Below are positions 3,696 to 50,469 of a stretch of DNA of 64,000 bases, one piece after another. The translations under genes were made by a program, and so were the position numbers. The stretch is taken from NCBI GenBank assembly GCA_038049695.1, contig CP142451.1:126763501-126827500 (forward strand), written 5' to 3'. This DNA is from Cinnamomum chago. Taxonomy: Eukaryota; Streptophyta; Magnoliopsida; Laurales; Lauraceae. Position 1 is the first letter of the stretch, and each line of letters opens with the position of its first letter. A model generated the notes under the pieces. It had not been told where the DNA came from and did not search any database. It worked only from the letters and a program-made list of their open reading frames with translations.

Positions 3696-4385
3696 TCAAA
3701 ATCATTGCCAACTACCAATCATCAACACTAGTGATGAATAATCTCCACTAATTGCATGGCTAAAACACAAGATTTTTTTTTCTTTTCTTTTTTTTGACAA
3801 ATTAAGTATAAAGAACTCAATTCCTATGAAAGCTTTTTTAACTACAACAACCAATTCCTCAAAAAATTACTTTGTTTTTCAATTATATCATAGTAAAATA
3901 GATGTATAGCCTATAAATGAGGGTTACAAATATTCTTAGCAATTTGTCATTACATTCTAGAGGCCTAGGTGTGGTATGCGGTATTATTAGCGTAGGAATT
4001 TTATAAATGGCATATCTCTAAATAGGAAGTCCTAACATGAAAATAAGAAATTTTAGACGTGTCATCCATTAAAGATTGAAGACGTCGAAAGCCGCAGCGT
4101 GATCCGACCTGGGGAGACTGCCCCATGTACTTATAAGGTAGGTCCGTCACTGAATTTATTTATTTATTCTGGTTCACCGCTTCCTTTCTTCTTCTTCTAT
4201 TTTGTACCATTAATCAGTCAAGGTCTAATGACTGATTTCTTCATTCTTCAATCACAAAATGACTGGCAAGAACTCTCGTTGTTTATATGTTAATCTTCTT
4301 CAAATTTCAATTTTATCTTTGCTTATTCATAATCTTCCGCTTGTTTCATGGTATTTTGTAACTTGAAGTATCTGACTATCGAACA
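3696..4385. other. Gene-free stretch
   Basis: AT-rich sequence with a T-rich run near 3773-3797. I see no convincing reading frame, RNA gene or bounded repeat. Confidence 0.5.
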
Positions 4386-5550: not shown

Positions 5551-7893
5551 GTAACTGTTGTCATATTTTTACATGTTACAGTTTATTATTTTTCTCTTTT
5601 TACATGGACTTTGTGAAAATCAGCAAAGTTCACTCTCTCTCTCTCTCTTTTATGTGCTTTATTTTAGCTGAAATTCATGTATCTTCTATTTTTTCTTATC
5701 TTTGAGTAGTCATTTTAGAAGATGATCTCATGTAGGTGTGTGTGGGTGGGTTCATGGGGGCTAGTGAATGATGGGGTTTGGGGCATGTGAATTCATTGAA
5801 TATATTGGTGAAACTTGGTGTTAGAAGAGGGGCTTTGTATTTTGTAATTTTTGTCCACCTTTTCTACTTCAAAATGGGAAAAAAAAATGAAGAGCTAAGG
5901 TCCAACTTGATGAAGAGGAGAGGGGAAGAAGAAGAATGGGAAAGCCCTAAGTAGATCCACTGGCTTGGAATGAAGGGATCTGATCTGGTTTCTATAGTGA
6001 AAAGGATATCTGATTTGGCCATCATCATGAGGGGAAGAATCTGGGTGGAGCAGGGATGTGCACGGACTTCAATAAAGATGATGGTTATAAGGTGATTGTA
6101 GCTTGAGATCTAAAAAATTTTAGATTGAATAATCCACAGCAGGGGATCAATCTGTGCAATTGCCATTTGAATGGTTGGTCTCAATCTCCTCTTCACCTTC
6201 AGCTCATCCAAATCAGGTGCACTTGACAGTGAGTGTGGTTACATGGATGACTCCTTTCAAGAGAAAGCGATTTGGTCTCTGCTCAACATGGTTGGCTGGG
6301 CTTGATCCTCACAGAAGTAAGGAGACTAATCAAAGACAATCTTGCATACACCGAAGAATTAGCAGCTCCTGAGCCTATGCCACCAGTTTGCAGAGGACTC
6401 CGCGCAATCTATATACCATGATTTAGACGGTTGATTTGATGGGCCTTACACCATGGATAGAGCATTGCTTGAAAATTTCAGATTGGAAGATGCCCCCTAC
6501 TCAACCATTGGCATTCAAGTAGACAGCGAGTAAAATTACACTGATCATCCAAATGGTGGGAAGAAAATAATACACTGAACGTACAATCGATGAAGAAAGA
6601 AGTTTTAGTATTAGGATCTTCCAATCTGGGGTGTTTTGTCACATCCCCATCTGCATGGACCAAATCCCACCCAAAGGGTCCAACTAGCCATGGGCCCAAC
6701 ATGGATGAAATTCTTCAACTCGGCACATCTGTGCATTAGATTCTAGAACCATCCCAACCCCACACCCCCACCCCAAAAAAATTAAAAAATTCTGTACAGG
6801 GATTTTTGGTCATCTCATATAGATGGCAAAGGGTACTGTCTGAAGAAAAGAGTGGGGGCTTCTTTGTTGCATTCTTGAGGGATCTGCCACTAAAATGCCA
6901 GATGATGTTCATTCGTGCCTTGAGGAAATTGTCTCAAGAGAGGGTTGTGTTGTGTGCCTAGGGAATCAGCTGCTAGGTGGTTCAGAGTACTAGAAAGGGA
7001 AGGTAGATACATCATCGAAACATGGTCGTGAAACTTGGAGGGTATGAAGCTTGATTTAAGAAGTTCCAAAATAAATTGGACACAATTGGGCATTCGTGGT
7101 GTTGTGATATAGAACATTTCCTATCTTCAGTGTATTTCCCTTGCAAATGATGTTAACCCTATATGTTGGGAAAAGAGGACTCTGAAGTCTGAACCCATAT
7201 GATGTTGTCTTCCATGTGCATGAGGAGCTTCAATTGAGATTCATGTGGCTTAGTGGGAAGACCACACTGATTTTATTAAAGATGTATGTGCTTATGCACT
7301 GCTGGGTGCCTTTAGCGGATTAATCTAAAGTTGGGTATTCTTGCGCGCGCGCACAATATATGCTTGAAAAAAGAAAATGCAGTTTTATGGGTCCACATGG
7401 CAATGGATGTGGTTTTCTTAATCAGGTGGCAGCCCCACTGATGGTGTTGGATCATCCATGAGGTTGCTAATCTTGTAATTTATATAGAACAAAGACATGG
7501 ATTTAGTCTATATATTCAAGCTATGGGCAAAATGGTTGGGTCCTTTGCCAAAATCTTGCAATCAACAAGACTCAATGAAAAATCATCTCTTCTAACCTCA
7601 AGCATTAAAAATGGCAGTACTCTCAAACATTAAAAAGTCGCCCATTTAACTATAATCCATCCATTTATTCGTTTCCATTAGGTTAGGTTTGCACCCAGTT
7701 CCATGAGTGCCAACTACATGCAGATGACACGGCCAGTGCCATCAGGGTAAACACGAATGTGGATTTTGTTTGAATGTCGCTCACCTTATTTACAATTTTA
7801 TGTACACCGAGCTCAATGGAAACCCACAGCTTCAACAAATCCAACAAATTCATCTCATGTCATCAAGCAACCCAAGCTATCATTCGGAAAACC
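5551..7893. other. Intergenic stretch without recognisable gene
   Basis: I see only short frames without family resemblance. A CT run occurs at about 5632-5648 and a (GC)n-like run at 7344-7352. The continuation of the diflavin reductase was looked for here and not found. Confidence 0.5.
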
Positions 7894-19200: not shown

Positions 19201-22200
19201 TGGATGCCCAGACCCAAAATCATGCTGATGAGCTATGGTGTATGAAACAGGATTGTCAGTTGAAAGGGAGTAGCCTTTTTCTTTGAATGGTATCAATTTT
19301 GTATTAATATAGTATTTTTTTTATCGGTAAAGAGCAGAAAGATCCTATCTGCTGCTTTGTCAAAACTCAATATAGAAAAACTTGCAGACAGCCATAGAAT
19401 GATAGACACAAAACAAGGCTGAGACACATGAGTTAGAGGGGTAGTGGCACTACATCTCAATAACTCAAAAACAGATGCCATACAAACTTTTGTCGGAATG
19501 TATGGCTTCATATTAGACCTCCTGAGAATATGACAGAATGTAACTTGCAATTTCTTAATAAAATCATGTATCACCTCTGCCACATCAACCAGTCCCCACT
19601 ACATGGAGCCAAGCTATTCCCACTAGCCCAGAAGATGACTCTGGAAATCACCTTCAATGATGAGGCAGTAATACCTGGACAAACAGCCTCCACAAGATCC
19701 GCATTAAGGGCCATCCAACTGGCCTAGAATAGCCCTTGATAACAGTAGATGCTTGTCTCTTAAGTAATCCTACTACCCACAGGCCCTGGGTTACCATCAA
19801 TGTTAAGATTAGTAGAACACGTTAGAGGTAAGGTGTCACGACCCGGACCCGGACCCGAGATCAGAGTCATTAGGGTTAACCCCCGGGTCGCGATGATTAT
19901 CATACTTACTCCCGTAAACCCCGATTAACCGAAGTCTACAAGGGATCTTGCATACATACATGTCAATGTATAGTTGCGGAATATAATAATATACATTGAC
20001 AACCATTTAACAAAACGAATCATATACTTTACTTTGAATCGTAAAGTTCACCTACTATCAACCACTGCATATTTAAAATACAATGCAGGGAATATCATTT
20101 CGAATACTTACAATACCATAATGAATATACAATTAATTCCTAAAAAGTTTTCCCAAAATATTCCATGTTATTCGCTCTCCAATCATGTCCATTCGGTTAG
20201 ACCTCCTGGAGGTATCGAATGGGCCTCCTCTGCTGGCGGGACGGTCTCGGAGGGACCGGCACGGGCAACTAAGCCTGTAATATCATCAGTAATACCATGA
20301 ACACGATGGTTCAACAAGATATATACATATGATGATAGCATGTTTGACAATTCCTAACAATTCATTGAATTGAATGAGAATGAAGCTCAAATGAGCAAAT
20401 TGAGGATTTGTGTATAAATACGGATTTATACGTATTTTTTCGAATTCGGAAAATCTTGATACTAGCATGTGTATCTCGACGAGTACGATGATTTTCGTAA
20501 AAGACTTGAATTGATTCGACGAATATCGGATCAAATGGACCTTTAATTGACTCAAAATGTAAATGAATGAATGAAAGGGGGGTTAAATGCAAAATGGACT
20601 TGTATAAGATAAGATGAACTCCTTTTGAGTTCATTCATCTCCTGTAACCTAAGCTACAGCCGTTTCTTTCTTCCTTATTCAATTTCTTCTTCTTTCTTCA
20701 TTATCAAGAGTGGATTTGAGGTGACTCAAGTGAAAGGAATTCATCCTTTGCATCTTCTTTACCATATTCTTGAGTTTTCTTGGAATTCAAGCTTGAAAGG
20801 AGAGAAATCCAACTCAAACCAAGCTAAACAAGGAGTTGAAGCTCCACTTAAGGCAAGCCTATGCATGTGTTTATGTTTATGAATGTATTGTCATTGATTT
20901 TGATGCAAAAGAGATGATGATTCACAAGTTAATGTGTTTTAGGGGTTTAAAACCCTCATTAAGCTATGCATTTAATGGAATGGATTAAGATAAGTAGGGT
21001 TAGATTAGTTAGATTATAGTCTTGGATTACCTTTGTGAAGTTCATGAAATTATTGTCAATCAGGTTCAAAAGAGAGAAAGAAAGGAAAGGGAGAAAAAAA
21101 ATCCCTTCACTGCACTGCAGGAACAGAACTTATGTTCTGTTGCTGCAGTGTGGCCGGTCGACCGGCCAGCAGGGCCCGGTCGACCGGGCACACTGGGTCA
21201 AGCTCGAAAGAGCCTGACCAAAATACATTCATAAATATAAACACATGCATAGGCTTGCCTTGAGTGAAGCTTCAACTCCTTGTTTAGCTTGGTTTGAGTT
21301 GGATTTCTCTCCTTTCAAGCTTGAATTCCAAGAAAACTCAAGAATATGGTGAAGAAGATGCAAAGGATGAATTCCTTTCACTTGAGTCGCCTCAAATCCA
21401 CTCTTGATAATGAAGAAAGAATAAGAAATTGAAGAAGGAAGAAAGAAGAAAGAAACGGCTGTAGCTTAGGTTACAGGAGATGAATGAACTCAAAAGGAGT
21501 TCATCTTATCTTATATAAGTCCATTTTGCATTTAACCCCCCTTTCATTCATTCATTCATTTACATTTTGAGTCAATTAAAGGTCCATTTGATCCGATATT
21601 CGTCGAATCAATTCAAGTCTTTTACGAAAATCATCGTACTCGTCGAGATACACATGCTAGTATCAAGAGTTTCCGAATTCGACAAAATACGTATAAATCC
21701 GTATTTATACACAAATCCTCAATTTGCTCATTTGAGCTTCATTCTCATTCAATTCATTTCCTAATCATAGTTACTATTTCATTACGCCTAAATTACTCAT
21801 GGTTAGGCTAATTAAATTCCATTTGGTGATAAATCACCATTAGTTCATTTAAACCGGCTTAATTAGTCATAATCTCAATTAATTAGAGTTAATTGTGATT
21901 AACTCGGGACGGAGCCTAACATAAGGTCCATAGATGGATAATGCTTGATACCCTCCTATAGAGCTGCCACTGACCTCCAACCAACAACACTTAATGGAAG
22001 AGGAAACAACACCCTCAGAGCACTTTAGGTGAACAGTGCTGGAAGCCACAGAGTGCCTAAGCCTGCACACAAGCCTTCCTGTCCCAAGATTTACTGCTGA
22101 AACAACACAGTGCTCTTTTTACAGAGAAGCCAAAGCACAACGACAAACAAAAAGAACCAGAGCCCTATGTCACTCCAATATACATTTATACTTCCAAGCC

Positions 22201-27302: not shown

Positions 27303-28056
27303 TTAAGGAAATCCTCTCAACTCCCAAAATAGGGCTAGTCTGAACTTATGTTGCACGATGTTCAAACTCTTCTCAAAAGAAGCATTTATCTCCGTAAAGA
27401 GCAACTCAAGCAAGACATGGATAGTCATCGAAGACGAACCCAAGTTGCAGCTCGATGACCCTAAATGTCTCTTCAGCTTTGTATATGCACTCTCAATCCT
27501 GTTCGTAGTGACATTCTCAAAGTACATATGTACGTCTGTCCATGCAGTCACGAATTGTTCATTATGCTTAATCAACCAGGATTTCTTCACATAATCAAGA
27601 ATATGTGGATACCCGCAGAAATTCCTATTATATGCACTTAGAATTTGCATGTAGTCATCTTCAGTAGGAGATGTTATTAACATGTTCCAGCTAGTAATAA
27701 ATGCATCACATCTGTCTTTTGTTTCAAAAAACTTCTTACAATTAGCCAAGATGTTCCTTGAAATATGCCACCTGTATAGCAAGTTTGTAGCATTCGAGAA
27801 AATATTATTAATTGCATGCATCAGCGCCAGCTCTCTTTCTGTGACAATCACACGTGGCAACAGGTATCCATCCATTAATGACTTCAACCTCTCAAAGCCC
27901 ATGTATAGTTTTGCACCTTCTCCTACTCAAGGTACAAAAAAGCAACCAAAAATGTCAACTGAGTCGAGGCAACATTAATAATTTCAAGCAAGGGCAGCCG
28001 ATATCTATTTGTCTTATATGTGGAATACATTATCAACACCTGGGGAAATACTCATA
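27303..28056 (-). pseudogene. MULE transposase, catalytic part
   Basis: The minus-strand frame 27902-27303 encodes GYLLPRVIVTERELALMHAI, the segment around the second catalytic Asp/Glu, then a zinc-coordination-like C/H stretch (LLYRWHISRNI) and NRIESAYTKLKRHLG. Upstream, to 28056, related residues continue (VLIMYSTYKTNRYRLPLLEI), but YST replaces the usual DCTYKTN-type Asp, and a stop follows FLYLE. The element can therefore not encode a working transposase. Confidence 0.85.
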
Positions 28057-28061
28057 ATAAC

Positions 28062-31000
28062 TGTGAGGCCCCACCCCTTGTGAGCCCTCTATCTGAATTT
28101 TGAATACTATTTAATATTATTTATTAGCTAATTATATTAATTATGGGTTAGTATGGGTAGTTTTATATTTTCCTAAGTTGAGTTAGATTAGCCTGGTTGT
28201 AATAGTCATAGGGTTAATTGGAGTCTTTTGCTATTTTTAGGGTTAATGGTGAGTAGAGGCCCTAGCTAGGAATTAGAGTTAACTATAGGGGTGTATTCCT
28301 AAAAGGCACTCATCTAGAACCTTCCCCACTTAAAGACCTAAAAGCCCACAACCCTAACCCTAATCCTATACAAACCTAAAGGGCATTTCAGTCCTTAGCC
28401 AATCCCCAAATCCTATAAATCTAGCTCATTTCCCAAGAAAGCCCTAGCTACTATTCCCCATCATTTCCCCTCTTCTTCCTCTCTCTCATTTCTCTTCTTG
28501 AGCTGGTTCTTGTGCTGGGAAAGACCTAGGAGCTGCAACTTCTTCTTCTTGCATTGGATTGGGTTTTCTCTTCTTCTCTCTCTACAATCTTTCAATTCAC
28601 AAAGGCAAGTACAATATACTGATTTAGCATAGAATATATGTGGTTTTATTTCCTTGATTCTGCATTTTCAATTCAGTTAATGTTTATATACTAGAAGTAC
28701 CTATGAGCTTAGAGTAGATGGATTTTGGCATTGATGGATGGATTTTTACCCATTTGGAAGATCAATGGCCCTTTTGTGTTGGATGGAGGTACATTGTAGT
28801 ATTTTCATTGTTTTTGTTGATTTGGTGGAGTTTGGGAGAGATTAGAGGTGATTTGATGGAAAATGGGTTAAAAAGGATGAAACCCTGAAAACTGGGTTTT
28901 CCCCAGTTCTGCGTGTGCCCAGTCGACCGGCCTGCAGCTCGGTCGACCGAGCACACTGAAACTGGGAAAAACCTAGGTCTCAGTTAGTTCCTGCAGAACT
29001 GTCTGTTCAGTGTGCCAGGTCGACCGAGCCATGCTCCAGGTCCACCGAGCACACTAATTTTTGCAGAAAACAGCTGAGAATGAAATTTTCACTCAGGCCA
29101 GAAATCCAGTGTGCCAGGTCGACCGAGCCATGCTCCGGGTCGACCGAGCACACAGGATTTGCAGGGAAAATGTTTGAGAGCTGGGACATCACTTTCCAGG
29201 ATTCTCTGTGTATGCGGTCGACCTCCCAGGCCAGCAGGTCGACCGGACACCCAGGAATTTCCCTGAGATGGGATCAAGCCTTCCAGGTGCCTGACCAAAT
29301 TTCCCAGTGCACTCGATTGACCGACCTACAGCCAGGTCGACCGAGCACACTGCACACCAGGTCGACCTAGGGGTCAACCCCCAGTGTGCCAGGTCGACCG
29401 AGCCTGTGCCAGGTTGACCGAGCACACTGAGTTCAGTGATTTTCCATGTTTTCACATTTTTGAAGTTGTGATCATTTGTGGGGCCAATTGACCATCCAAA
29501 TGGACATTTATCAAGATGTCAAGCCCGAGTCAACGGTGTGGCTCAACCTTGACTCGTGGGGACCACCAAGTAGGGTTTTGGTTGTTTAATCTAAGATGAT
29601 TCGATCCTTAAATGTTGTCAACGATGCTCGTAACCACAGGAGCATCAAACACAGTATCCTTTGGCATCTGAGACTTTATTTAGAGATCTAATTACCGGAG
29701 ATGGACCTGAAGCTGAATGTGGTCCATTACCTAGGTTGGACTATTGTATTTCCCTATTGATTCTCATATTGAAGTTCACACTTCACCTCGTTTATTATTG
29801 TCACTCTTAAATCCTTAAGTATAGTTAATAACTGTTAAATAAATGGAAATGGAGGACCTGAACCTAGGATATCTTAGAGGTGACCCGATGATGTGAATGA
29901 GAGTACACTGACCCGTGTCTGTGGCTAGGCGGGCCCTTTTTGGGCCTAAGTATGGATATGTGTACCCTTAGATTGGATATGCAATTTATATTGGGATTAT
30001 AACTCATGATGGTTGAGGATGAGTTGTTTATCAGTAGAAATGGATATGTTGCCTCGTTTGGACTGTTTTAGACTAGGTCATGTGTTGATGGGCCTTGGTA
30101 TGGATCAAACGAGTAGGCTTGGACTTGGATTGTAATCCATGAACTGATTTGTTACATGAACCTCTTAGAGACTTGGTTAGGACCTTGTTCACGCAAGGCA
30201 AGGTCTAGACAGACACAGACCTTTAGAGTTTCCTCGAATCGGCATAGACATTCATTCGGTTGATTTAAGCTCAGCCTGTGGACTGATCATCCCCGGTAGG
30301 AGCTATTATGATGAGCTATAGTTTAAACAGACGGTGTGATGTCGGGTCCGGTCTTTGAGTGATGAGTGTATGAGATTATTGAGTGATTTGCGGGGTTAGT
30401 AATTTCCAGCACTGGTGAGATTCCCCGCCGCAACTGTGTACAGTATGGGAGGGTCGCGGCATAATATCCCGCGGTATCCAGCTCGTGTGAATGTGTCACA
30501 TTGTGTTAGACTAGATGCTTTATATTATCCTGATTCCTTATGTTCATCTTGTTCAACTGCCTAGATCGTATATCTTGTTATTCCTTAATTTATATACATG
30601 TCTCTACTCTTTTGATGCATATTGTCTTATGTTACTTGTATACTGTGACTTGCCAGATCTTTAGATCTGACCCATCTTTGGTGCTTAGGCCTTGACCCCG
30701 AGTTTGAGGAGGACGCGCTCGGGCTCGTAGAGGTGCCTGTCGTTGGAGATTACGTTTGAGGCCCGACAGACCCGGAAGTCGACCCGGAGGGTGGGGAGCC
30801 GTTACCAGGGCTTTGAGTGTTATTTTGTTTGGGCTTTTGAGTGAATTTTGTAGTGAGCCGGGTAGCAGTTAAAATGTAATTAACTTTTGTTGTTCTTAAC
30901 AACTGATACCTTTAAAACTAGACTACAGTTCAACTCACATTTGATATATATATATATATATATTGATACCTATTGCTTCCGCTTTACTTCTTATGCTTCC

Positions 31001-31154
31001 GCAATTTAACCATTGATAGTATATTGTTCAAAAGTTTTAAATTGGACCTCACTGCGGACCTACGATCTTGGAAGTTCTCGGATTTTTCGGGAAGTAGCAC
31101 GCCAACTTCGGGTATTCCAACGACTTTCTCAGTATCCGGAATTAGGGCGTTACA
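28062..31154 (+). repeat. 5' LTR (3,093 bp) of the Ty3 chromovirus
   Basis: Begins TGTGAGGCCCCACC and ends GGGCGTTACA. Contains the GTCGACC-module array at 28921-29425 and a short (TA)n run near 30947-30962. Confidence 0.95.
28921..29425. repeat. GTCGACC module array in the 5' LTR
   Basis: About fourteen copies of GGTCGACC or one-base variants occur in 500 bp, mostly in pairs. Several pairs are enclosed by CAGTGTGCCAGG on one side and GAGCACACTG on the other, making imperfect palindromic units of about 45-60 bp (for example 29108-29153). The core GTCGAC is itself self-complementary. Confidence 0.9.
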
Positions 31155-34100
31155 TTTTTATGATATCAGAGCTGAGCTGGTCTCTAAGAAATAAAACACA
31201 CTAGAAACCTTAGGACGTAGTGAGGATTTGAGTGATGGGACGCGTGTAAGGACGATGATTGGGTAGAATCAGTTTAGACCTTAGTGTTGGGCTTGACCTA
31301 ACCCATTTACGTTCTCTTGACAGATGCCTGGAGGAGATACACCACCACCTACGACACCCGCAGTCGGTGGCCAGCCTGATTTCGAGCGCCGTTTCGAGAG
31401 ATTTCTTCAGGCCTTTCTCGTTTCTCAGGAGGCCCAGGTTGCAGTGCATCAGCAGCAGACAGAGGATTTTGCGCAATTTCAGGCGCAGGTCCTAGACGTG
31501 ATCGATAGGGTGGCTCAGCCCGGTTTCGTAGCAGCACCTGTTCGGGATGCAAACTCGAACGTCATCTTCGAGAGGTTCCTCAAGAGGGGACCACCAGAGT
31601 TCACGGGCGCAGATGATCCATTAGTGGCTGACGACTGGATTGTACGGATGGAGAAGATTTTTAGAGTCTTCAAGTGCACTGGCCAGCAGAGGGTGCAGCT
31701 AGCTGCCTATATGTTTAGAAGAGTCACTGAGGATTGTTGGAGGACTATTCAGCGTCAGTACGAGGTCATCGGGGATGAGATTGCGTGGATAGCCTTCCGA
31801 GCTGACTTCCTCCGGAAGTTCATCCCATCGCATGTCAGAGACCGCAAGCTGCGGGAGTTCCAGGCACTGGTGCAGGGCAGTATGACTGTCTACCAGTACG
31901 AGGTCCGCTTCACTCAGCTTTCTCGCTTCGCAGAGGCTCTAGTCACGCCTGAGTCGGAGAGGATCCGGCGGTTCGTTGAGGGACTGAGAGATGATATCCA
32001 GCTGAACATGTCCTGTATCGAGATTCATACCTATGAGGAGGCTTTGAGGAGAGCCTACTGGGCAGAGGAACACCTGCAGCGGATAGAGACTGGACAGCAG
32101 CAGAGACGGATCTGAACCGCTCTGACTAGACCACAGCCCGTGCCCCTACAGCAGCAGCAGCCATTCCAGAGGCAGAGGCCGGCAGGTCAGGCAGGGCAGT
32201 ATCAGCATCAGCAGCAGCGTGGGCCCAGAGTGTGCTATGATTGCGGAGAGGCAGGGCACATCTCCAGATTTTGCCCACTCTGAGGAGGGCAGCCTCAGAT
32301 GCTTCAGCTTCCAGCACGTCCTAGAGTTCCAGTTCCCGCTCCACCTGTCCAGCGGATTGCTTCAGCACCCTAGCCACCTTAGCAGCAATACCGTGCTCAG
32401 CAGCAGCAGGTACGTGGACTCCAGCAGCCTAGAGGGCAGCATTACCAGCGAGGGCGACATCAGAGGCGCCATGGCCAGCAGCACCAGCATCAGAGACCCC
32501 AGGCTATGGGTCGAGCTTTTGCGCTCACACATAAGGAAGCCGAAGCTGCAGAGAACGTCGTCGAAGGTACTCTTTCTATTTGTGATCAGATTGCTAGAGT
32601 GTTGTTTGATCCAGGAGCGACACATTCATATATGTCGTCAGCTTTTGCTTTAGTCCTTGGTGGGATAGGCGAAGCTACGCCTTGTACGTTAGTTGTGTCC
32701 ACCCTTATGGGTAAGAGTGTGGTGTGTCAGACTTAGCACGCCAGATGCCGAGTGCAGATTGGGGAGTACATTTTGCTTGCAGATCTGATCGTGCTACCCA
32801 TGCATGACTTCGACTTCATTTTGGGGATGGATTGGTTGGCCAGATATCGAACGGTGATGGATTGCTTCGAGAAGACAGTCCGACTAACTATCGACGGTTC
32901 ATATGACACGATCGAGTTCGTAGGCGAGAGGAAGCGGCCCAACAGCAGAGTGATTTCGGCACTAAAGGCCGAGAGACTGATGAAATCAAGTTGTGAAGGC
33001 TACATCGCGTTCATCTCAGAGGATAAACCGACCAAGAGAGTAGAGGAGATCCCAGTGGTTTGCGAGTTCCCCGATGTGTTTCTCGACGAGATCCCGGGAT
33101 TACCACCTGTCAGAAAGATCGACTTCACCATTGAGCTTGCACCAGGCACAGCACTGATTTCCAGAGCTCCTTATCGCATGGCTCTGGCAGAGCTGCGAGA
33201 ATTGAAGACCCAGTTGGAGGAGTTGCTAGACAAAAGCTTCATCAGGCCCAGCGTGTCGCCATGGGGCGCACCGGTACTCTTTGTGAAGAAGAATGATGGA
33301 TCGATGAGGATATGCATCGACTTTCGACAGCTGAACCAAGCAACAGTGAAGAACAAATATCCTCTTCCTTAGATCGACGAGCTCTTCGATCAGCTTCAGG
33401 GTGCGCAATACTTTTCGAAGATAGACTTGAGATCGGGATATCGCCAGCTGCGAGTCAGAGAGCAGGATGTGTAGAAGACAGTGTTTCGACCACGCTATGG
33501 CCACTACGAGTTCCTTGTGATGCCGTTCGGGTTGACGAATGCACCAGCAGTGTTCATGTCCCTGATGAACAAGATCTTCACTCCGTACCTCGACAACTTC
33601 ACAGTGGTGTTCATCGACGATGTGTTGGTCTACTCCAAGTCCAGAGAGGAGCACGAGCAGCATTTGAGGACGTCTCTATAGTTGTTACGCGACAATCAGT
33701 TGTACGCTAAGCTTAGCAAGTGCGAGTTCTGACTAGAACAAGTAGTTTTCCTCGGACACATCATCTCTAAGGACGAACTAGCGGTGAACTCAGCGAAGAT
33801 AGAAGCAGTGATGAATTGGGCGAGACCGAAGAATGCCACAGAAATTTGGAGTTTTCTCAGCTTAGCAGGCTACTATCGCAGATTCGTCAAGAGCTTCTCC
33901 ACGATTTCAGCCCCGCTGACCAAGCTGACGAGGAAAGGATGTACCGTTCGTTTGGACTGATGCTTGCGAGAACAACTTCCAGGAACTGAAGGAGAGACTG
34001 ACGACAGCACCGATCTTGTCTTTGCCTACCGGTAACGGTGGATTCGTAGTCTTCACCGACGCTTCAGGGACCGGTCTTGGTTGTGTCTTGATGCAGGAGG

Positions 34101-35990
34101 GGAAAGTCATTGTCTATGGATCGCGCTAGTTGAAAGAGCACGAGAAGAAGTATGTTACGCACGATTTGGAGCTAGCAGCGGTCGTTTTTGCATTGAAGTT
34201 GTGGCGACACTATCTCTATGGAGAGAGATTCGAAGTGCATTCAGATCATCGCAGCTTGCAGTACCTCTTCACTCAAAACGACCTCAACAACCGGCAGAGG
34301 AGATGGATGGAGTACATCAAAGATTACGACTTCCCTATCAAATACCATCCGGGTAAGGCAAATGTCATAACAGATGCTTTGAGCAGGAAGACCGCCCTCG
34401 TCAGTTTTCTAGCAACAGAGGGTGTGTGGACCGACGTCTTCAGCAACTTAGATGTTCAGTTTCAACCGCTCAGTGAGAGAGTTTTGCTTGCTGCCATGTC
34501 CGCATGGGAACCAGAGTTACTAGGAAAGGTCAAGGACAGTCAACGCAGCGACCCAAAGCTTGTTAGAGTGATCGAGCAGATTGACCAGAGGCCAGAGTTC
34601 AGATTGATTGGCGGAGTGCTCTACTATCATTACCGATTGTGCGTGCCGGATATTCAGGAGCTGAAGGACAAGATCTTAGCAAATGCACACCATAGCAGAT
34701 ACTCGATTCACCTCGGCAACACCAAGATGTACCAGAACCTGAGGAGCTACTACTGGTGGAACAACATAAAGAAAGAGATAGCACGCTATGTCTCCAGGTG
34801 TTTGACATGTCAGCAGATCAAGGTCGAACACCAGAAGCCGCCAGGGCTACTTCATCAGCTCGACATACCCCAATGGAAGTGGGAGTATATCATCATGGAC
34901 TTCATCGCGGGACTTCCAGCTACCAGGAGACGCCACGATGGCATTTGGGTGATTGTGGATCGGCTGACTAAGTCGGCTCACTTCTTGCCAGTTTCGATGA
35001 AGGCAGGACTTGATGTCCTTACTAAGTTGTATGTAGACAGGATTGTCACATTGCACGGAGTTCCAGCATCGATTGTTTTGGACAGAGACCCGCGTTTCAC
35101 TTCCCATTTTTTGGAGAGTCTGTAGCAGGCCTTGGGCACCAAGTTGAGTTTCAGCACCGCTTATCATCCTCAGACGACGGGTAGACCGAGCGTACCAACC
35201 AAACACTGGAGGACATGTTGAGAGCTTGTGTCTTAGACTTCAAGGAGAACTGGGAAGATTCCTTGCCACTTTGCGAGTTTGCCTACAACAACAGCTACCA
35301 TGCGAGCATCAAGATGGCACCGTTCGAGGCTCTGTACGGGAGGAGATGCAAGACCCTAGTCTGTTGGGAAGAAGTTGGTGTCAAGAGCTTCCATAGACCC
35401 TCCATAGTCAGCGACACCAACAAGAAGGTTCGACAGATAGTCGAGAACCTGAAGATCAGCCGCAGCCGACAGAAGAGCTATGCAGATAACAGGTGCAGAC
35501 CTCTCGAGTTTCAGAAGGGAGACAGAGTTTTCTTGAAGGTTTCTCCAGCCAGAGGTACCCTTAGGTTTGGCGAGAAGGGTAAGCTAGCTCGGAGATACGT
35601 CGGACCGTTCGAGATCAAGTCAAGGATCGGAGACGTTGCTTACAGGCTTCAGCTACAGCCAGAGCTTTCAGGAGTGCATGATGTGTTTCACGTCTCTATG
35701 CTGAAGAAGTACATGGAGGACCCTACACACATTCTTCATCATCAGCCACTCAACATCCAGCCAGACGCTTCGTACCTTGCCAGGCCAATTGCGATCATCG
35801 ACACCAAGGAGCAGGCGCTCTGGAACCGAACCATTCATTGGGTGAAGGTTCAGTAGGAGCATCACACGCCAAAAGAGGCAACTGGGAGCTACGCGACCAG
35901 GTGAAGAAGGACTATCCACATCTTCTACCTCAGGTATGTTCTAACTTTATTTTTACATTTGGAGACCAAATGTCCTAAATGAGGGAATGA
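31155..35990 (+). mobile_element. Gag-pol interior of the Ty3 chromovirus (fossil)
   Basis: Recognisable landmarks are the gag core (FLKRGPPEFTGADDPLVAD), zinc knuckle (CYDCGEAGHISRFCP), protease (LFDPGATHSYM), reverse transcriptase ([24 protein letters not shown]), RNase H (FTDASG, VHSDHRSLQYLFTQ), integrase (HHCC finger with CLTCQQIK; WEYIIMDFIAGLP) and the tail VHDVFHVSMLKKYM. No uninterrupted gag-pol frame exists. Confidence 0.95.
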
Positions 35991-38900
35991 TGTGAGGCCC
36001 CACCCCTTGTGGGCCCTCTATCTGAATTTTGAATACTATTTAATATTATTTATTAGCTAATTATATTAATTATGGGTTAGTATGGGTAGTTTTATATTTT
36101 CCTAAGTTGAGTTAGATTAGCCTGGTTGTAATAGTCATAGGGTTAATTGGAGTCTTTTGCTATTTTTAGGGTTAATGGTGAGTGAAGGCCCTAACTAGGA
36201 ATTAGAGTTAACTATAAGGGGATATTCCTAAAAAGCACTCATCTAGAACCTTCCCCACCTAAAGACCTAAAAGCCCACAACCCTAACCCTAATCATATAC
36301 AAACCTAAAGGGCATTTCAGTCCTTAGCCAATCCCCAAATCCTATAAATCTAGCTCATTTCCCAAGAAAGCCCTAGCTACTATTCCCCTTCATTTCCCCT
36401 CTTCTTCCTCTTTCTCATTTCTCTTCTAGAGCTGAGATTGAGCTGGTTCTTGTGCTGGGAAAGACCTAGGAGCTGCAACTTCTTCTTCTTGCATTGGATT
36501 GGGTTTTCTCTTCTTCTCTCTCTACAATCTCTCAATTCACAAAGGCAAGTACAATATACTGATTTAGCATAGAATATATGTGGTTTTATTTCCTTGATTC
36601 TGTATTTTCAATTCAGTTAATGTTTATATGCTAGAAGTACCTATGAGCTTAGAGTAGATGGATTTTAGCATTGATGGATGGGTTTTTACCCATTTGGAAG
36701 ATCAATGGCCCTTTTATTGTTGGATGGAGGTACATTGTAGTATTTTCATGTTTTATGTTGATTTGGTGGAGTTTGGGAGAGATTGAAGGTGATTTGATGG
36801 AAAAACGGGTTAAAAAGGGTGAAACCCTGAAAACTGGGTTTTCCCCAGTTCTGCGTGTGAAAGGTCGACCGGCCTGCAGCTCGGTCGACCGAGCACACTG
36901 AAACTGGGAAAAACCCAAGTCTCAGTTATTTCCTGCAGAACTGTCTGTTCAGTGTACCAAGTCAACCGAGCACACTAATTTTTGCAGAAAACAGCTGAGA
37001 ATGAAATTTTCACTCAGGCCAGAAATCCAGTGTGCCAGGTCGACCGAGCCCTACTCCGGGTCGACCGAGCGAACAGGATTTGCAGGGAAAATGTTTGAGA
37101 GCTGGGACATCACTTTCCAGGATTCTCTGTGTATGCGGTCGACCTCCCAGGCCAGCAGGTCGACCGGACACCTAGGAATTTCCCTGAGATGGGATCAAGC
37201 CTTCCAGGTGCCTGACCAAATTTCCCAGTGCACTTGGTCGACCGACTTGCAGCCAGGTCGACTAAGCACACTGCACACCAGGTCAACCTGGGGGTCAACC
37301 CCCAGTGTGCCAGGTTGACCGAGCACACTGAGTTCAGTGATTTTCCCGTTTTCACATTTCTGAAGTTGTGATCATTTGTGGGGCCCATTGACCATCCAAA
37401 TGGACATTTATCAAGGTGTCAAGCCCGAGTCAACGGTGTGGCTCAACCTTGACTCGTGGGGACCACCAAGTAGGGTTTTGGTTGCTTAATCTAAGATGAT
37501 TCGATCCTTAAATGTTGTCAACGATACACGTAACCTCAGGAGCACCAAACACAGTATCCTTTGGCATCAGACTTCATTTAGAGATCTAATTACCGGAGAT
37601 GGACCTGAACCTGAATGTGGTCCATTACCTAGGTTAGACTATTGTATTTTCCTATTGATTATCATATTGAAGTTCACACTTCACCTCGTTTATTATTGTC
37701 ACTCTTAAATCCTTAAGTATAGTTAATAATTGTTAATTAAATGGAAATGGAGGACCTGAACCTAGGATATCTTAGAGGTGACCCGATGATGTGAATGAGA
37801 GTACACTGACCCGTGTCTGTGGCTAGGCGGGCCCTTTTTGGGCCTAAATATGGATATGTGTACCCTTAGATTGGAGAGGCAGTTTATATTGGGATTATAA
37901 CTCATGATTGTTGAGGATGAGTTGTTTATCAGTAGAAATGGATATGTTGCCTCGTTTGGACGGTTTTAGACTAGGCCATGTGTTGATGGGCCTTGGTATG
38001 GATCAAACGAGTAGGCTTGGACTTGGATTGTAATCCATGAACTGATTTGTTACATGAACCTCTTAGAGACTTGGTTAGGACCTTGTTCACGCAAGGCAAG
38101 GCCTAGACAAACACAGACCTTTAGAGTTTCCTCGAGTCGGCATAGACATTCACTCGGTTGATTTAAGCTCAGCCTGTGGACTGATCATCCCCGGTAGGAG
38201 CTATTATGAGTATTTAGGAGCTATCATGATGAGCTATGGTTTAGACGGACGGTGTGATGCCGGGTCCGGTCTTTGAGTGATGAGTGTATGAGATTTTTGA
38301 GTGATTTGCGGGGTTAGTAATTTCCAGCACTGGTGAGATTCCCCGCCGCAACTGTGTACAGTATGGGAGGGTCGCGGCATAATATCCCGCGGTATCCAGC
38401 TCGTGTGAATGTGCCACATTGTGTTAGACTAGATGCTTTATATTATCCTGATTCCTTATGTTCATCTTGCTCAACTGCCTAGATCGTATATCTTGTTATT
38501 CCTTAATTTATATATCTGTCTCTATTCTTTTGATGCATATTGTCCTATGTTACTTGTATATTGTGACTTGCCAGATCTTTAGATTGACCCATCTTTGGTG
38601 CTTATGCTTTGATCCCGAGTTTGCGGAGGACGCGCTCGGGCTCGTAGAGGCGCTTGTCGTTGGAGATTACGTTTGAGGCCCGACAGACCCGGAAGTCGAG
38701 CCGGAGGGTGGGGAGCCGTTACCAGGGCTTTGAGCGTTATTTTGTTTGGGCTTTTGAGTGAATTTTGTAGTGAGCCGGGTAGCAGTTAAAATGTAATTAA
38801 CTTTTGTTGTTCTTAACAACTAGACTACAGTTCAACTCACATTTGATATATATATTGATATCTATTGCTTCCGCTTTACTTCTTATGCTTCCGCAATTTA

Positions 38901-39046
38901 ACCATTGATAGTATATTGTTCAAAAGTTTTAAATTGGACCTCACTGCGGACCTACGATCTTGGTAGTTCTCGGATTTTCCGGGAAGTAGCGTGCCAACTT
39001 CGGGTATTCCGACGACTTTCTCGGTATCCGGAATCAGGGCGTTACA
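35991..39046 (+). repeat. 3' LTR (3,056 bp) of the Ty3 chromovirus
   Basis: Same termini and content as the 5' LTR. The GTCGACC array is at 36862-37325 and slightly shorter; the (TA)n run is also shorter. Confidence 0.95.
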
Positions 39047-43050: not shown

Positions 43051-44957
43051 TAAGGAAGGAAGAGCCTACTTGGTGGTTTAACTTCATTAATCCAAGCTTT
43101 AGCTTTCCTAATCATCCCCTTCATCCCTTGGTTCTTTTCCCTTTTGATATGCCTCAATACCTCTCAAGGAGGGGCTTAAAATTCCCAACATATGGCAAGG
43201 GAAAGAACTCATATTTATAGCAAAAAGTTCCCAACGGCTAGTCCTCGGTCGACTGGCAAAGAGGTCTCGGTCGACCGGGAAGGCACAACGGTCAGATTTC
43301 TGACCGTTGGAGGTTTCAGTTCAGAACTGCAGATTTTACCTCCAGTTGTCTCGGTCGACCGAGACCTGTATCTCGGTTGACCGGCGACACTGCCGGGACA
43401 GCCTCCCTTTGACAAAAAATGCAACTTTTGCATATTTGAAGGTTTAGCTTTGGGGGACCTTTTGGCCACTAAATCAAGCTTGGAAAACATGTTTTAAAGA
43501 TTCTAATGGTTTTTAAAACATGACATAAAAAGCCTAAAAAGATTCAAAACTTTTAAAACAAAGGCTTGCTTGATTTCTAGAAAACTCTTTTCTAAAACAA
43601 ATGCATCCAAGATAAAAAGACAAATCATGCATAAATCAATACTTTTACAAATCTTAAAAGCAATGCATGAATAAAACAAGATTTCAAGTTTATTTAAAAC
43701 CAATGCAAGTGTGTAAATCAAATGATGCTTGAATGATTAATGCATCCATCAAATTGCAATCTACAAAAACCCTAACACCTATAAATCTCCATAGCTTGGT
43801 CAAACAATCCACACCGGCTATAGGCGCTGATCAAGGAATTAAATGTGTTTCTCTCAGGCACAAACCCTGCCTTCTTCATTTCCTTGAATACCCGACACTT
43901 CCGACTCCATTCCATTCTGCCCAAACACTGCCAACAGCGTATTCCATGTTACAATATCTGGGGCACACCCACTCGACCTTAGCTCCTCAAAAACATCCAT
44001 CATCTCTGGAAATCTTCCCCTGTTCCCATGCATATTGATCAGTGCATTGTAAGTGCAGAGGTTTGGCTTGCAACCCACACTCTTCATCTCCTCAAAAACC
44101 ATCACAGTAGATTCATCTTTCCCAGCCTTCTTGAATCCGGACAACAATGTTGTATAAGTGAAAACATCAGGGCTAATACCCTTTTCGACCATCTGGGTCT
44201 TGAGTTCCACTGCTTCATGCAAGAGTCCAACTCTGTCATAAGCCGAAATCAACGAATTATAAGTCACAACAGTAGGAGCAAACCCATCCCTTTCCATTTC
44301 CTGCAAAACACCCATTGCTTCCTTATGCCTCCGAGACTTACCATACACATCCAACAAAGCATTGTGGGTAACCTTATCCGGAATGAAACCGACCAACTTT
44401 ATCTCTTCAAAGATCCTCGCAGCTTCTTCATACAAATTCCCACATCGACAGCAGCTTATAAGAGTGTTGTAAGTATATGAATCAGGCAATATTCCATCAC
44501 TCTTCATCATTTCAACAATCGAATTTATCTTATTCCATGGCATACCCATCTTCCCATAAACATTGAGAATTACATTGTAAGTGATGAGGGTGGGTTTGCA
44601 ACCTTCTTCCACCATCTTTCTGAAAATAGACACAGCTTCCCGGTACCGCCCATTTCTCGAACAGGCGGTGATCAGAGAAGTATAAGCATAGACATCAATT
44701 GGGCAACCATCCTTTTGAAGTTCATAAAGCAGCGCAGCTGCATCCGAAACACGCCCCTGGCCGCTTAGAATACTAACAATAATAGCAATTGCAGGGCCAT
44801 TCAAGATCGACCCAAATGGTGAATCTTCACGACTACGCATCCATTGGAAGACTCTGAGAGTAGTTTCGCATTTCTTATGAAATCCTAATCCTTTAATTAT
44901 GCCTAAAAGATCAGAAGACAGAGTTTGAACATCACCTTGTTGGGATAAAGAGAGGAG

Positions 44958-47900
44958 CAACTTGATGAGTCCTAAAAGGCACATATTTTCATACACATTT
45001 TGGACCATTTTAAGGGCTTATTGATATTAAAGAGCTTTATTTAGTGACAAATCATGTTTTTATGCATTTAGGGTCCATTGTAGTGCATTCATGCATAATT
45101 TGCTCAAAAATCACACTTTTTGCATAAATTCATGAAATCTGCCATTTTTGGAGATTTATTTTTGGAAAGCCAATTATTTTCGGTGCATCAAGTAGGGTCT
45201 CATGCATTGTCCATTTAAATTCCTTACATAAAATTATTCTTAAATCCATTTGTTTTAATTTATGTAGGAGAAATCAAGAATGGGACCTACACTGGTGAAA
45301 TTTGAGAGAGATCAAGGGTAGGACATCTTTCAAGGTGGACCCACATATCTTGGTATTTTTGGAGAGTTTGAAAAGTCAACAATGAAAAACTAGATTTGTG
45401 ATTTCAAATTCAAGAAAGGAAAGTGTGCTAAAAGAGATTGACTAGTCAATCAAAGAAGCTTGGAAGCAAACCAAAGAGGGAAGGAGAGTCAAGAAACAAG
45501 GAAAGAAATATCCCAAGATGCCTTTGGATGTCCACATGGGTCCCACACACACCCCATTGCACAACTACCATTCCATATGTGCACAATTATTTTCGGATTC
45601 TTCAGAGGCAGCAAGATTAAATTGGCCATAACTCTTAATCCAGTCATCGGATTGGTGCAATCGATATACCGTTGGAAAGATCTTTTCGAGTAGATATCTT
45701 TAGAACCCAAGATTGTGTCAATCGGAGCTAAAACGAGAAAGATATAGCCTCTGAAAGTTGGTGCTATAATTTCTACTCGGGATTTCAATTTTGCACATGA
45801 AAAGCATAAAAAATCTCTCACTCACCTTGCTATTTCTTTGAAGACTTGTTGGCCAAGGAAGGGACTTGCCATACAAAGAAGATTGCATGCTACAAACTTG
45901 GAGCAAAGAAGGAAAGAAAGAAAACAAAAAATTATAAATTGAAGGCATAAGCCTCCCTCTCCTCTCATGGGAAGATAGACCAACTCTCTCTAGAATTACT
46001 ACTACACTTCATTTTCTTCCTCTCTCTTTCTCTCCATTTGAGTCCTCAAGGAGATTTTGGCCGGAAATCACACTACACCCTTGGGTTTTTCATCTAGAAG
46101 AGGCTTCTCATCCTAGTATGTAATTGTCATTGTTTTTTTATATATCTTATGTAAGACTTTGCATATATTAGTAAAATTGTTTCTTACTTTTTCAATTTTT
46201 CTTTCTTGTCCTTGGGTGATTGGTGCTTGTTTTATGTTTCTTTTCTTGTTGGTGTTTGGACTGACGACCCAAGGGCCCTAAGAGAATGATTCAAATTATG
46301 ACCTCGCTTAGAAAAGAATTTTGAAAGAGGAGAATACACTTCCACACATTTAAATTTATGTTCTTCCACACATTTAAGTTTTTGTTAAAACCACACATTT
46401 ACTTTTCTTGTTTTTACCACACATTTAAATTCTTGAACTTTTTTTTATTATCTTTATTTTTATGATCAATTCAATTTTATGTTTATTTTATGCATAGTTT
46501 ATGGTTGGAACTAATTAGCATTGCATGCACATTCATATTGGTGGAGTTTAGACATGTTTAAATTGCTGGAATCGGAGTTTTAAATTGAATAAGCAAGAAC
46601 AATAAGAGATTTGAGTAAATGATCTTGGCCAAATAATTTTTGGAAATTCGGATCCCAATATAAAGGACATCATTCTGCACATTGTTGCAGGAATTTCTGG
46701 ACAGATTTTGTGTAAAAAGTTTGTGATTAGAAACCTGATCAAAACACATTATTTTTCGATGAAACTTGGAGAAATTAAAGTTTGATCAGTGTATTTTCAA
46801 ACTCCAGAATTTCAAGCAAAAATAACTTTGGAAAGATGGTGAACCAGTGGCTCAAACATGGTTGGTCGGACCCACCTGTGTGCAGAATTTCTGCACAGTT
46901 TTTTTTTAGGTCATGTTCATACACTCATATCTCATTCGTTTTAAATTGTTTTTAACTTTCGTTTTTTTTATTTGATTCATGCATCATTGTAGTTCAAAAC
47001 CCAGTCCTGATCTAATGCAACCTAAAACTGAGTTTAATAGCTGGGTTTTGAACTACAATGATGCATGAATCAAATAAAAAAAACGAAAGTTAAAAACAAT
47101 TTAAAACGAATGAGATATGAGTGTATGAACATGACCTAAAAAAAAACTGTGCAGAAATTCTGCACACAGGTGGGTCCGACCAACCATGTTTGAGCCACTG
47201 GTTCACCATCTTTCCAAAGTTATTTTTGCTTGAAATTCTGGAGTTTGAAAATACACTGATCAAACTTTAATTTCTCCAAGTTTCATCGAAAAATAATGTG
47301 TTTTGATCAGGTTTCTAATCACAAACTTTTTACACAAAATCTGTCCAGAAATTCCTGCAACAATGTGCAGAATGATGTCCTTTATATTGGGATCCGAATT
47401 TCCAAAAATTATTTGGCCAAGATCATTTACTCAAATCTCTTATTGTTCTTGCTTATTCAATTTAAAACTCCGATTCCAGCAATTTAAACATGTCTAAACT
47501 CCACCAATATGAATGTGCATGCAATGCTAATTAGTTCCAACCATAAACTATGCATAAAATAAACATAAAATTGAATTGATCATAAAAATAAAGATAATAA
47601 AAAAAAGTTCAAGAATTTAAATGTGTGGTAAAAACAAGAAAAGTAAATGTGTGGTTTTAACAAAAACTTAAATGTGTGGAAGAACATAAATTTAAATGTG
47701 TGGAAGTGTATTCTCCTCTTTCAAAATTCTTTTCTAAGCGAGGTCATAATTTGAATCATTCTCTTAGGGCCTTTGGGTCGTCAGTCCAAACACCAACAAG
47801 AAAAGAAACATAAAACAAGCACCAATCACCCAAGGACAAGAAAGAAAAATTGAAAAAGTAAGAAACAATTTTACTAATATATGCAAAGTCTTACATAAGA

Positions 47901-49087
47901 TATATAAAAAAACAATGACAATTACATACTAGGATGAGAAGCCTCTTCTAGATGAAAAACCCAAGGGTGTAGTGTGATTTCCGGCCAAAATCTCCTTGAG
48001 GACTCAAATGGAGAGAAAGAGAGAGGAAGAAAATGAAGTGTAGTAGTAATTCTAGAGAGAGTTGGTCTATCTTCCCATGAGAGGAGAGGGAGGCTTATGC
48101 CTTCAATTTATAATTTTTTGTTTTCTTTCTTTCCTTCTTTGCTCCAAGTTTGTAGCATGCAATCTTCTTTGTATGGCAAGTCCCTTCCTTGGCCAACAAG
48201 TCTTCAAAGAAATAGCAAGGTGAGTGAGAGATTTTTTATGCTTTTCATGTGCAAAATTGAAATCCCGAGTAGAAATTATAGCACCAACTTTCAGAGGCTA
48301 TATCTTTCTCGTTTTAGCTCCGATTGACACAATCTTGGGTTCTAAAGATATCTACTCGAAAAGATCTTTCCAACGGTATATCGATTGCACCAATCCGATG
48401 ACTGGATTAAGAGTTATGGCCAATTTAATCTTGCTGCCTCTGAAGAATCCGAAAATAATTGTGCACATATGGAATGGTAGTTGTGCAATGGGGTGTGTGT
48501 GGGACCCATGTGGACATCCAAAGGCATCTTGGGATATTTCTTTCCTTGTTTCTTGACTCTCCTTCCTTCTTTGGTTTGCTTCCAAGCTTCTTTGATTGAC
48601 TAGTCAATCTCTTTTAGCACACTTTCCTTTCTTGAATTTGAAATCACAAATCTAGCTTTTCATTGTTGACTTTTCAAACTCTCCAAAAATACCAAGATAT
48701 GTGGGTCCACCTTGAAAGATCTCCTATCCTTGATCTCTCTCAAATTTCACCAGTGTAGGTCCCATTCTTGATTTCTCCTACATAAATTAAAACAAATGGA
48801 TTCAAGAATAATTTTATGTAAGGAATTTAAATGGACAATGCATGAGACCCTACTTGATGCACCAAAAATAATTGGCTTTCCAAAAATAAATCTCCAAAAA
48901 TGGCAGGTTTCATGAATTTATGCAAAAAGTGTGATTTTTGAGCAAATTATGCATGAATGCACTATAATGGACCCTAAATGCATAAAAATATGATTTGTCA
49001 CTAAATAAAGCTCTTTAATATCAATAAGCCCTTAAAATGGTCCAAAATGTGTATGAGAATATGCGCCTTTTAGGACTCATCACAACT
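44958..49087. repeat. 5-bp target duplication CAACT around the palindrome
   Basis: CAACT lies at 44958-44962 and 49083-49087. The undisturbed site is preserved at 49719-49735 in the neighbouring duplicate of the PPR 5' end, which reads GAGCAACTCATCAACG, confirming the exact insertion point. Confidence 0.95.
44963..49082. mobile_element. 4,120-bp near-perfect palindromic element, LTR-like
   Basis: The left arm 44963-47004 and right arm 47041-49082 are both 2,042 bp and reverse complements of each other, with a 36-bp spacer (47005-47040). The ends read TGATGAGTCC...GGACTCATCA and are flanked by CAACT. TG...CA ends, a 5-bp duplication and features typical of long Tat/Athila-like LTRs (for example CCGTTGGAAAGATCTTTTCGA) suggest it derives from an LTR. 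No primer-binding site, polypurine tract or coding domain separates the arms. I see about a dozen differences between the arms, nearly all in the outer 520 bp. Confidence 0.9.
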
Positions 49088-50076
49088 CATCAACGTCGGC
49101 TTGGGGATTGAGGAGGGCTTGCAGGCATTGCTGTCCTTGAGGGGAGACACCATTGGAAGACCAGGGTTTTCCACGGTTGTGGTCTTGGGATTTTTCGAGG
49201 CGGGATTTGCGGGAGGTGAGGGGGGTCTTCTTTGGGGGAAAGGGGGGGGGGGTGTTTGGTGGGTTGGGAGGAATTGGGGTTGTGATTTTTGGTGGTGGGT
49301 GGGTTTTGAATGAGAAGTTCTTGGAGGAGAGGGGCAAGAGGAGAGGGCGGAGGAGAAGGGTTTTGAGGTTGCTGGCCTTGGAAAAGGGGTTTTGGGGGAA
49401 GAGGGCCAGGTAACAGGAGAGGAAGAGCCAGTTTATCTGCCATGAATGAAAGAAAGAGAGAGAGAGAGGGAGAGAGAGAGAAAGAGGGTGAAGGCAGCTG
49501 CATCCGAAACACGCCCCTGGCCGCCCAGAATACTAACAATAATAGCAATTGCAGGGCCATTCAAGATCGACCCAGATGGTGAATCTTCGCGATTACGCAT
49601 CCATTGGAAGACTCTGAGAGCAGTTTCGCATTTCTTATGAAATCCTAATCCTTTAATTATGCCTAAAAGATCAGAAGACAGAGTTTGAACATCACCTTGT
49701 TGGGATAGAGAGAGGAGCAACTCATCAACGTCGGCTTGGGGATTGAGGAGGGCTTGCAGGCATTACTGTCCTTGAGGGGAGACACCATTGGAAGGCCAGG
49801 GTTTTCCACAGTTGTGGTCTTGGGATTTTCCGAGGCGGGATTTGCGGGAGGTGGGGGGTCTTCTTTGGGGGGAAAGAGGGGGTTTTGGTCGGTTGGGAGG
49901 AATTGGGGTTGTGATTTTTGGTGGTGCGTGGGTTTTGAATGAGAAGTTCTTGGAGGAGAGGGGCAAGAGGAGAGGGAGGAGGAGAAGGGTTTTGAGGTTG
50001 TTGGCCTTGGAAGAGGGGTTTTGGGGGAGGAGGGCCAAGTAACAGGAGATGAAGAGCCAGTTTATCTGCCATGAAT

Positions 50077-50110
<34 letters not shown>
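49088..50110 (-). repeat. Tandem duplication of the PPR gene 5' end (~610 bp unit)
   Basis: One copy runs from about 50110 to 49495, the second from about 49494 to 49088 and continues beyond the palindrome at 44962-44730. Each copy has a CT-rich leader, MADKLAL, the proline-rich N-terminus, SLSQQGDVQTLSSDLLG and IIKGLGFHKKCE up to the VSDAAA motif. The junction at about 49494 joins AGGGTGAAG to GCAGCTGCATCC; the same GTGAAGCAG word occurs at 50123-50133, suggesting a microhomology-driven event. Confidence 0.88.
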
Positions 50111-50126
<16 letters not shown>

Positions 50127-50469
50127 GAAGCAGGGACAGAGAGAAAGAGAGGAAGGAGGAGAAAGGGGGGGGGGGAGATGAAGGAGAGAGGGGAGATGGA
50201 GTGGGCGGACTGGAGAGGGAGATGGCAGAAAGGGTGAGCGAGAGGGAGATGGCAAAGAGGGAGATGGGGAATGAAGCAGAGATGCAACGGAGAGAGACGG
50301 TGAAGCAGGGAGAGATCATTCCCAATTCCCAGATCTCAGTGGACTCTCCTCTCTCACGTGAAAACAGTTGATCCTTCCTTCTTTCTCTCTTTTTTTTCTT
50401 GGGTATTTCTCTGAAAGAGGAGAATTTTTAGGGCTAAGGTGGCGCCCTCCACAGCACACCTCCCCTATT

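Follow-up and report, generated by a model that had tools for sequence, protein, structure and literature searches.

How did two long and almost identical pieces of LTR sequence come to face each other inside one insertion in the genome of Cinnamomum chago? The insertion (44963-49082) lies in a window of 64,000 nucleotides, the whole stretch of DNA that was analysed, within contig C1. An earlier note, made from the letters alone, had described a near-perfect palindrome with TG...CA ends, a clean 5-bp target duplication and no primer site between the arms, and this description stands in every part (Table 1). The 4,120-bp palindrome consists of two arms of 2,042 bp each around a 36-bp spacer, and the alignment of arm with arm that the note had called for gave 12 mismatches (11 transitions and 1 transversion) over 2,042 bp and no indels, an identity of 99.4%. 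The termini are TG...CA, and CAACT is found in exact copy on either side. Two 5-mers drawn at random from the window agree with a probability of 0.0015 (200,000 draws). The bases neighbouring CAACT differ, so the duplication cannot slide and its length is exactly 5 bp. The spacer is ordinary LTR sequence; the insertion has no primer-binding site (PBS), no internal DNA, no polypurine tract (PPT) and neither U5 end. The results presented here indicate that the insertion is very probably a U3-outward inverted LTR dimer, integrated through its two U3 ends.

Table 1. Features of the insertion, its target and the neighbouring paralogue, in coordinates of the window
Feature	Position	Strand	Remark
Interrupted PPR gene fragment, pseudogene as it stands	43854..44962	-	
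Target duplication, left copy CAACT	44958..44962	.	
Left arm, LTR positions 1-2042, U3 end outward	44963..47004	+	Orientation from complete elements
Candidate TATA box (TATAAA) of left arm, centre-facing	45933..45938	+	Promoter function inferred
Spacer, 36 bp, LTR positions 2043-2078, continues right arm	47005..47040	-	
Right arm, LTR positions 1-2042, U3 end outward	47041..49082	-	Orientation from complete elements
TATAAA mirror in right arm, centre-facing	48107..48112	-	Promoter function inferred
Target duplication, right copy CAACT	49083..49087	.	
Far side of interrupted PPR copy	49083..49486	-	
Uninterrupted tandem paralogue of target, CAACT once at 49718-49722 (empty site)	49494..50115	-	

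The earlier note had proposed a search of the host genome for other copies and for a normal LTR matching one arm. The search of 1.06 Gb in 14 contigs revealed a multicopy family of ordinary elements with LTRs of about 2.57 kb. The arm gave 67 matching stretches (40 candidates scored from 2,080 first-look candidates), and the 13 other near-full-length matches listed are 91-96% identical to it. Three complete elements (L039, L040 and L041) were read. They have direct LTRs of 2,572-2,584 bp beginning TGATGAGTCC, a PBS-like tggcgccgttgccgggg that starts six bases after the LTR and a PPT-like agttggggggtg that precedes the 3' LTR. Their target duplications are ATACC and CCTAT, both exact, and GACAT/GACAC, with one mismatch. 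The PBS is reminiscent of tRNA-Asp-primed Athila-like elements, a tentative label. The internal regions of 3.3-3.8 kb contain one stop-free stretch of 577-589 amino acids and no other of at least 160 amino acids in any of the three elements; the long stretch of L040, the one of the three that was tested, had no Pfam match at E 0.1. On this basis the parent family looks non-autonomous.

Relatives were looked for outside the host and none were found. One IMG/VR pattern returned 30 contigs, in which the arm matches listed were only 17-19 bases long, and a second IMG/VR pattern, one GTDB pattern and a blastn comparison with plasmids gave no relatives. Rfam had no match at the gathering threshold in 44700-50300. 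A Ty3/gypsy element in the window itself (28062-39046) was considered as the parent and rejected, having only short weak similarities to the arm. This element encodes gag, protease, RNase H and integrase-related domains between 3.1-kb LTRs of 93.5% identity with an exact ATAAC duplication, and is unrelated to the palindrome. A MULE transposase fragment, under the Pfam cut-off, lies at 27303-27902.

The target of the insertion is the remnant of a PPR gene on the minus strand, whose reading shifts frame near 43870 and stops shortly afterwards; this copy is thus a pseudogene now. The adjoining tandem paralogue aligns with both flanks (222/229 and 379/404 identities) and crosses the insertion site uninterrupted, with a single CAACT. 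The paralogue is, as judged from this alignment, a record of the target in its pre-insertion state. Relative to it, the junctions gained 4,120 bp plus the 5-bp duplication and nothing else, which is the clean empty site of an LTR-retrotransposon integration product, here in a tandem paralogue and not in an allele. Within 44955-45000 and 49040-49100, an 8-base word, ACTCATCA, is common to the end of the element and the target flank. A homology-driven junction at this word was discounted, as such a junction is expected to keep the word once, and the sharing was set aside as coincidence or target preference.

The complete elements also give the orientation of the arms. The U3 ends point outward because TGATGAGTCC starts the LTR in complete elements and the PBS follows its other end. 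The right partner, on the minus strand, comprises LTR positions 1-2078 and the left partner positions 1-2042, and the two meet tail-to-tail inside the LTR, at 47004/47005, without microhomology. Six ordinary LTR copies continue with the reverse complement of the spacer, with few differences, and further copies do likewise. About 440-470 bp of each U5 end are absent, an estimate based on the 2,573-bp LTR of a subfamily that carries some 59 additional bases around position 460. With U3 at both outer ends, the insertion is neither a complete LTR retrotransposon nor an ordinary solo LTR. It has the TG...CA termini on LTR sequence and the exact 5-bp duplication, of the length usual in the family, that belong to an LTR-retrotransposon integration product, and is filed as an aberrant product of this kind.

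The insertion shares LTR sequence, TG/CA ends and a 5-bp duplication with L039, L040 and L041, but its LTR parts face each other and the remainder of the element is missing. Two-LTR circle junctions and autointegration products of retroviral or retrotransposon cDNA likewise arise from cDNA ends joined off the chromosome; however, the circles join U5 to U3 and autointegrants integrate into themselves, whereas in the window LTR interior meets LTR interior at a new site with a target duplication. Described pairs of inverted mobile elements also consist of two inverted copies, but the available parts of those accounts tell of the loss of one copy by recombination and hold no LTR-only palindrome within one shared duplication. 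VANDAL21 is described, in the portion available, as head-to-head DNA transposons and not LTRs (PMC12312487). DIRS-1 has an inverted LTR arrangement like that of the insertion; as presented in the accessible text, it carries three ORFs and a tyrosine recombinase between the LTRs (PMC5633606), whereas the insertion has only 36 bp there, without tyrosine recombinase ORFs, and an integrase-type duplication. Among the listed matches in the open-licence literature, as distinct from subscription papers, no U3-U3 inverted LTR insertion with a duplication was noticed.

The palindrome is not the only inverted LTR insertion in this genome; four further U3-outward cases were found on C2, C3, C5 and C10. 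A 31-base pattern of the U3 end has 187 exact matches (79 forward and 108 reverse; reversed control 0). Seventeen adjacent pairs lie within 12 kb of each other, where about 0.4 would be expected by chance, whatever the orientation; 14 are direct, 3 are U3-outward (the window, C2 and C10) and none is U5-outward. A pattern for a U5-U5 junction matched four distinct places (C2, C10, C3 and C5), all four between inverted LTR sequences. This pattern is partly palindromic, with a reversed control of 0 forward and 2 reverse, and its four matches carry weight only through the inverted LTRs subsequently seen on both sides of each. A second junction pattern gave no such place. The survey was small, pattern-based and limited to exact matches, and its counts are lower bounds.

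The five loci vary in their ends and joints. Perfect 5-bp duplications flank three of them (CAACT in the window, CCCAC at C2 and CCTGC at C5), and two have none (TCTTC/CATCA at C10 and CCTAA/CACCC at C3, where the ends were placed by hand). At C2, C3, C5 and C10 the partners are joined at, or at most 24 bases from, their U5 ends, and U5 thus faces U5, unlike in 2-LTR circle junctions. The C2 joint sets an LTR plus AGTTTTTG against CAAAAACT plus the other LTR; the inner U5 ends retain the PBS spacer AGTTTT and two PBS bases (TG). Both outer U3 ends of this dimer are exact. Its partners are a 2,558-bp LTR and an element that combines LTRs of about 850 bp with a PBS, a shortened internal region and a PPT. 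C2 therefore joins two different molecules, its partners differing in structure. At C10 the 3' ends of the LTRs differ between partners and the arms are 92.8% identical, suggesting that it, too, may have been joined from two molecules. About 24 bases lie between the LTR ends at C3. C5 has patchy arms of 1,885 and 2,123 bp and, at its centre, AGTTTTTGGCGCCAAAACT, which contains the self-complementary GGCGCC of the PBS. The likeness of C3 and C5 to the parent family is mainly limited to the last 80 bp of the LTR (81-84%), placing them in related families. Self-pairing of the PBS was considered as a general mechanism of joining and rejected. A genome search for TTTTGGCGCCAAAA gave five sites (reversed control 3). 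Inverted LTRs flank just one of these, C5, and are absent around the four others in the 1.1 kb read at each; PBS self-pairing may thus account for one case at most.

Two further arrangements were observed. A second inverted repeat in the window (20366-21756) has TG...CA ends, arms of about 530 bp with 96% identity and a spacer of about 330 bp; it lacks a matching 5-bp target duplication. At L087 (C10:48403800-48410500, positions 516-5650), two LTRs stand in direct tandem after an internal region; the first is without its last 9 or so bases and the junction has GTG, as at the PPT end. The arrangement is reminiscent of a 2-LTR circle junction that has come to lie in a chromosome.

The differences between the arms of the palindrome bear on its birth and later history. 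At 10 of the 12 differing sites, one arm carries a private base that is absent from all of 24 near-full-length copies; at the two others, sites 19 and 280, the left arm shares its state with 6 and 2 of these copies, respectively. All 12 had appeared private against six copies. By majority state, five changes fall on the left arm and seven on the right. It follows that the arms started out identical or almost so, although the 13 other near-full-length matches listed reach only 91-96%; both would come from a single molecule or from two copies of one source. Their divergence (12/2042) is near that of the LTRs of L039 (12/2573), indicating that the insertion is young in family terms; the LTRs of L041 and L040 differ at 6/2584 and 1/2573 sites.

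Eleven of the 12 mismatches lie in the outermost 516 bp of the arms (KS p about 1e-5), and none of 3,000 shuffles, scanned only at every fifth position, reached as extreme a change-point. Given this distribution, the simplest reading is gene conversion from the centre, and perhaps arm-to-arm conversion after insertion kept the inner arms identical. Conversion is expected to leave an inner excess of variants private to both arms, and no clear excess was found in an alignment of 39 rows (24 near-full-length copies and 15 shorter ones, 14 of them parts of counted copies): the outer 516 bp contain 3 such variants and the inner 1,526 bp contain 12 (densities 0.0058 vs 0.0079). Conversion is thus suggested by the mismatch gradient, with biased repair and chance as alternatives. 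CpG is nearly absent from the outer quarter of the LTR (44963-45478; observed/expected 0.07 vs 0.37 in the inner part).

With regard to origin, the earlier note had offered an inverted LTR dimer or the inversion-duplication of a solo LTR. The dimer is supported by the LTR family in the genome, the 5-bp duplication, the absent PBS and the clean empty site. For self-integration, named as an example of how a dimer might form, no specific support was found. It seems likely that LTR DNA existed as extrachromosomal cDNA, became joined tail-to-tail, and was then inserted by an LTR-retrotransposon integrase that used a U3 end on each side in place of the usual U3-U5 pair; both the agent and the joining before integration are inferred. 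The att sites of U3 and U5, with TG/CA at their termini, are described in a review as necessary and sufficient for integration (PMC12789967). Exact outer U3 ends and raw inner U5 ends, as at C2, would be expected if integrase used the U3 ends. With a 5' end formed by the U3 terminus, plus-strand strong-stop (LTR-only) DNA would be the likeliest substrate. Such DNA may have folded back within the LTR, leaving a 36-nt loop, which would explain the U3 outer ends, the missing PBS and internal DNA and the identical arms at once. Alternatively, two copies from the same source may have been joined after about 440-470 bp were lost from each U5 end, or a larger dimer may have lost its centre. Joining of two molecules is also likely, given the lack of microhomology and the U5-U5 joints at the other loci, which may have been made by end joining or misdirected priming; the same lack of microhomology gives fold-back priming no direct backing. 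The observations fit fold-back, ligation of two cDNAs and later central deletion alike. Two observations stand against the dimer reading. The window junction lies inside the LTR, unlike those at C2, C3, C5 and C10, and for this reason fold-back, trimming or later deletion is needed; C10 and C3 lack a target duplication. In addition, LTR-only DNA cannot be the sole substrate, one C2 partner being a whole shortened element, and solo-LTR formation after insertion of a full dimer could mimic LTR-only partners.

Among the alternatives, the one closest to the dimer reading is a sub-route of it with another order of events, and its probability overlaps with that of the main reading: two complete cDNAs would have been joined U5-to-U5 and integrated via their U3 ends, after which the unstable centre was deleted by hairpin bypass or repair of a central break, with loss of the internal regions and about 440-470 bp per inner end and survival of the spacer. 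C2, where raw U5 ends connect an LTR with a complete though shortened element inside a CCCAC duplication, gives this order of events some standing, and the near-symmetric endpoints without microhomology would fit repair at the centre of a palindrome. However, large extra losses are required in both partners, the window insertion holds no remnant of PBS or internal DNA, and at C5, C10 and C3 the LTR ends meet without internal DNA, although solo-LTR formation could have removed it. A later central deletion is possible but less likely than not. Inversion-duplication of a resident solo LTR through an error of replication or repair would have a precedent in yeast, in which rearrangements of the foldback inverted-duplication type are known, according to the portion of the report available (PMC7467729). 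Target DNA should then have been drawn into the palindrome or the second duplication lost, whereas both ends stop exactly at the U3 terminus and abut CAACT, with the junctions otherwise unchanged from the paralogue. This origin is very unlikely.

An artefact of assembly or of chimeric reads is likewise very unlikely. Foldback reads are a known sequencing artefact, but here each flank is distinct and corresponds to its own side of the paralogue, the palindrome ends right at the LTR terminus and at a duplication, each arm has its own private mutations, and related structures occur at other loci. Inverted ends and a target duplication would also suit a DNA transposon with 2-kb terminal inverted repeats. 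The arms, however, are the LTR of elements with a PBS, a PPT and direct LTRs, and the common plant superfamilies with terminal inverted repeats are not known to leave duplications of 5 bp. A Pfam scan of arm plus spacer, covering 6 of 16 open stretches of at least 50 amino acids, gave two weak matches under the cut-off (E 0.05 and 0.19), neither credible, and a transposon of this class can be discounted almost entirely. Integration of an inverted LTR dimer through two U3 ends best accommodates these observations.

The insertion may also affect its family. TATAAA occurs at LTR position 971, facing the centre in both arms, but its role as a promoter is a guess because the plus strand of the left arm has a second TATAAA, at 46659, making two in all. 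Transcripts from inward promoters that cross the centre could form a hairpin as long as about 1 kb, and silencing RNA from this locus is plausible from its structure. Mu killer of maize is, like the insertion, an inverted duplication of transposon DNA with a proposed long hairpin RNA; in the part of the report available, it is a partial duplication of a DNA transposon, not of an LTR, that can silence its family, with read-through from a flanking gene proposed (PMC3440606). The accessible account of Physcomitrella places the most active 22-24 nt locus between convergent LTRs; the inverted repeat within that locus was considered not strong enough for folding (PMC2600652). In work on EVD silencing in Arabidopsis, the available text raises the possibility, not tested there, that hairpins of inverted LTRs act as a trigger, and gives one candidate nested insertion with LTR-hairpin potential; that insertion is antisense and nested, whereas in the window one integration event seems to have delivered both arms. 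The same text weighs against the hairpin route, in that hairpins usually yield several siRNA sizes and the LTR siRNAs were mainly 24 nt (PMC11624286).

Finally, the window provides a genomic case of an insertion that has two U3 ends, with an integrase-type duplication and an adjoining empty-site paralogue, and inverted LTR insertions recur at several loci of this one genome. They likely form a structural class that is missed by LTR annotation tools built on direct repeats, and such loci make the idea of an LTR-hairpin trigger directly testable with small-RNA data. It is a speculative and rather unlikely extension that retrotransposition recurrently yields U3-outward inverted LTR dimers, which have been overlooked and which seed hairpins whose double-stranded RNA, made from inward promoters, silences the parent family in trans. 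If this is true, LTR DNA would be joined U5-to-U5 or folded back, then integrated via two U3 ends, and the element's own copying error would supply the trigger for its silencing.
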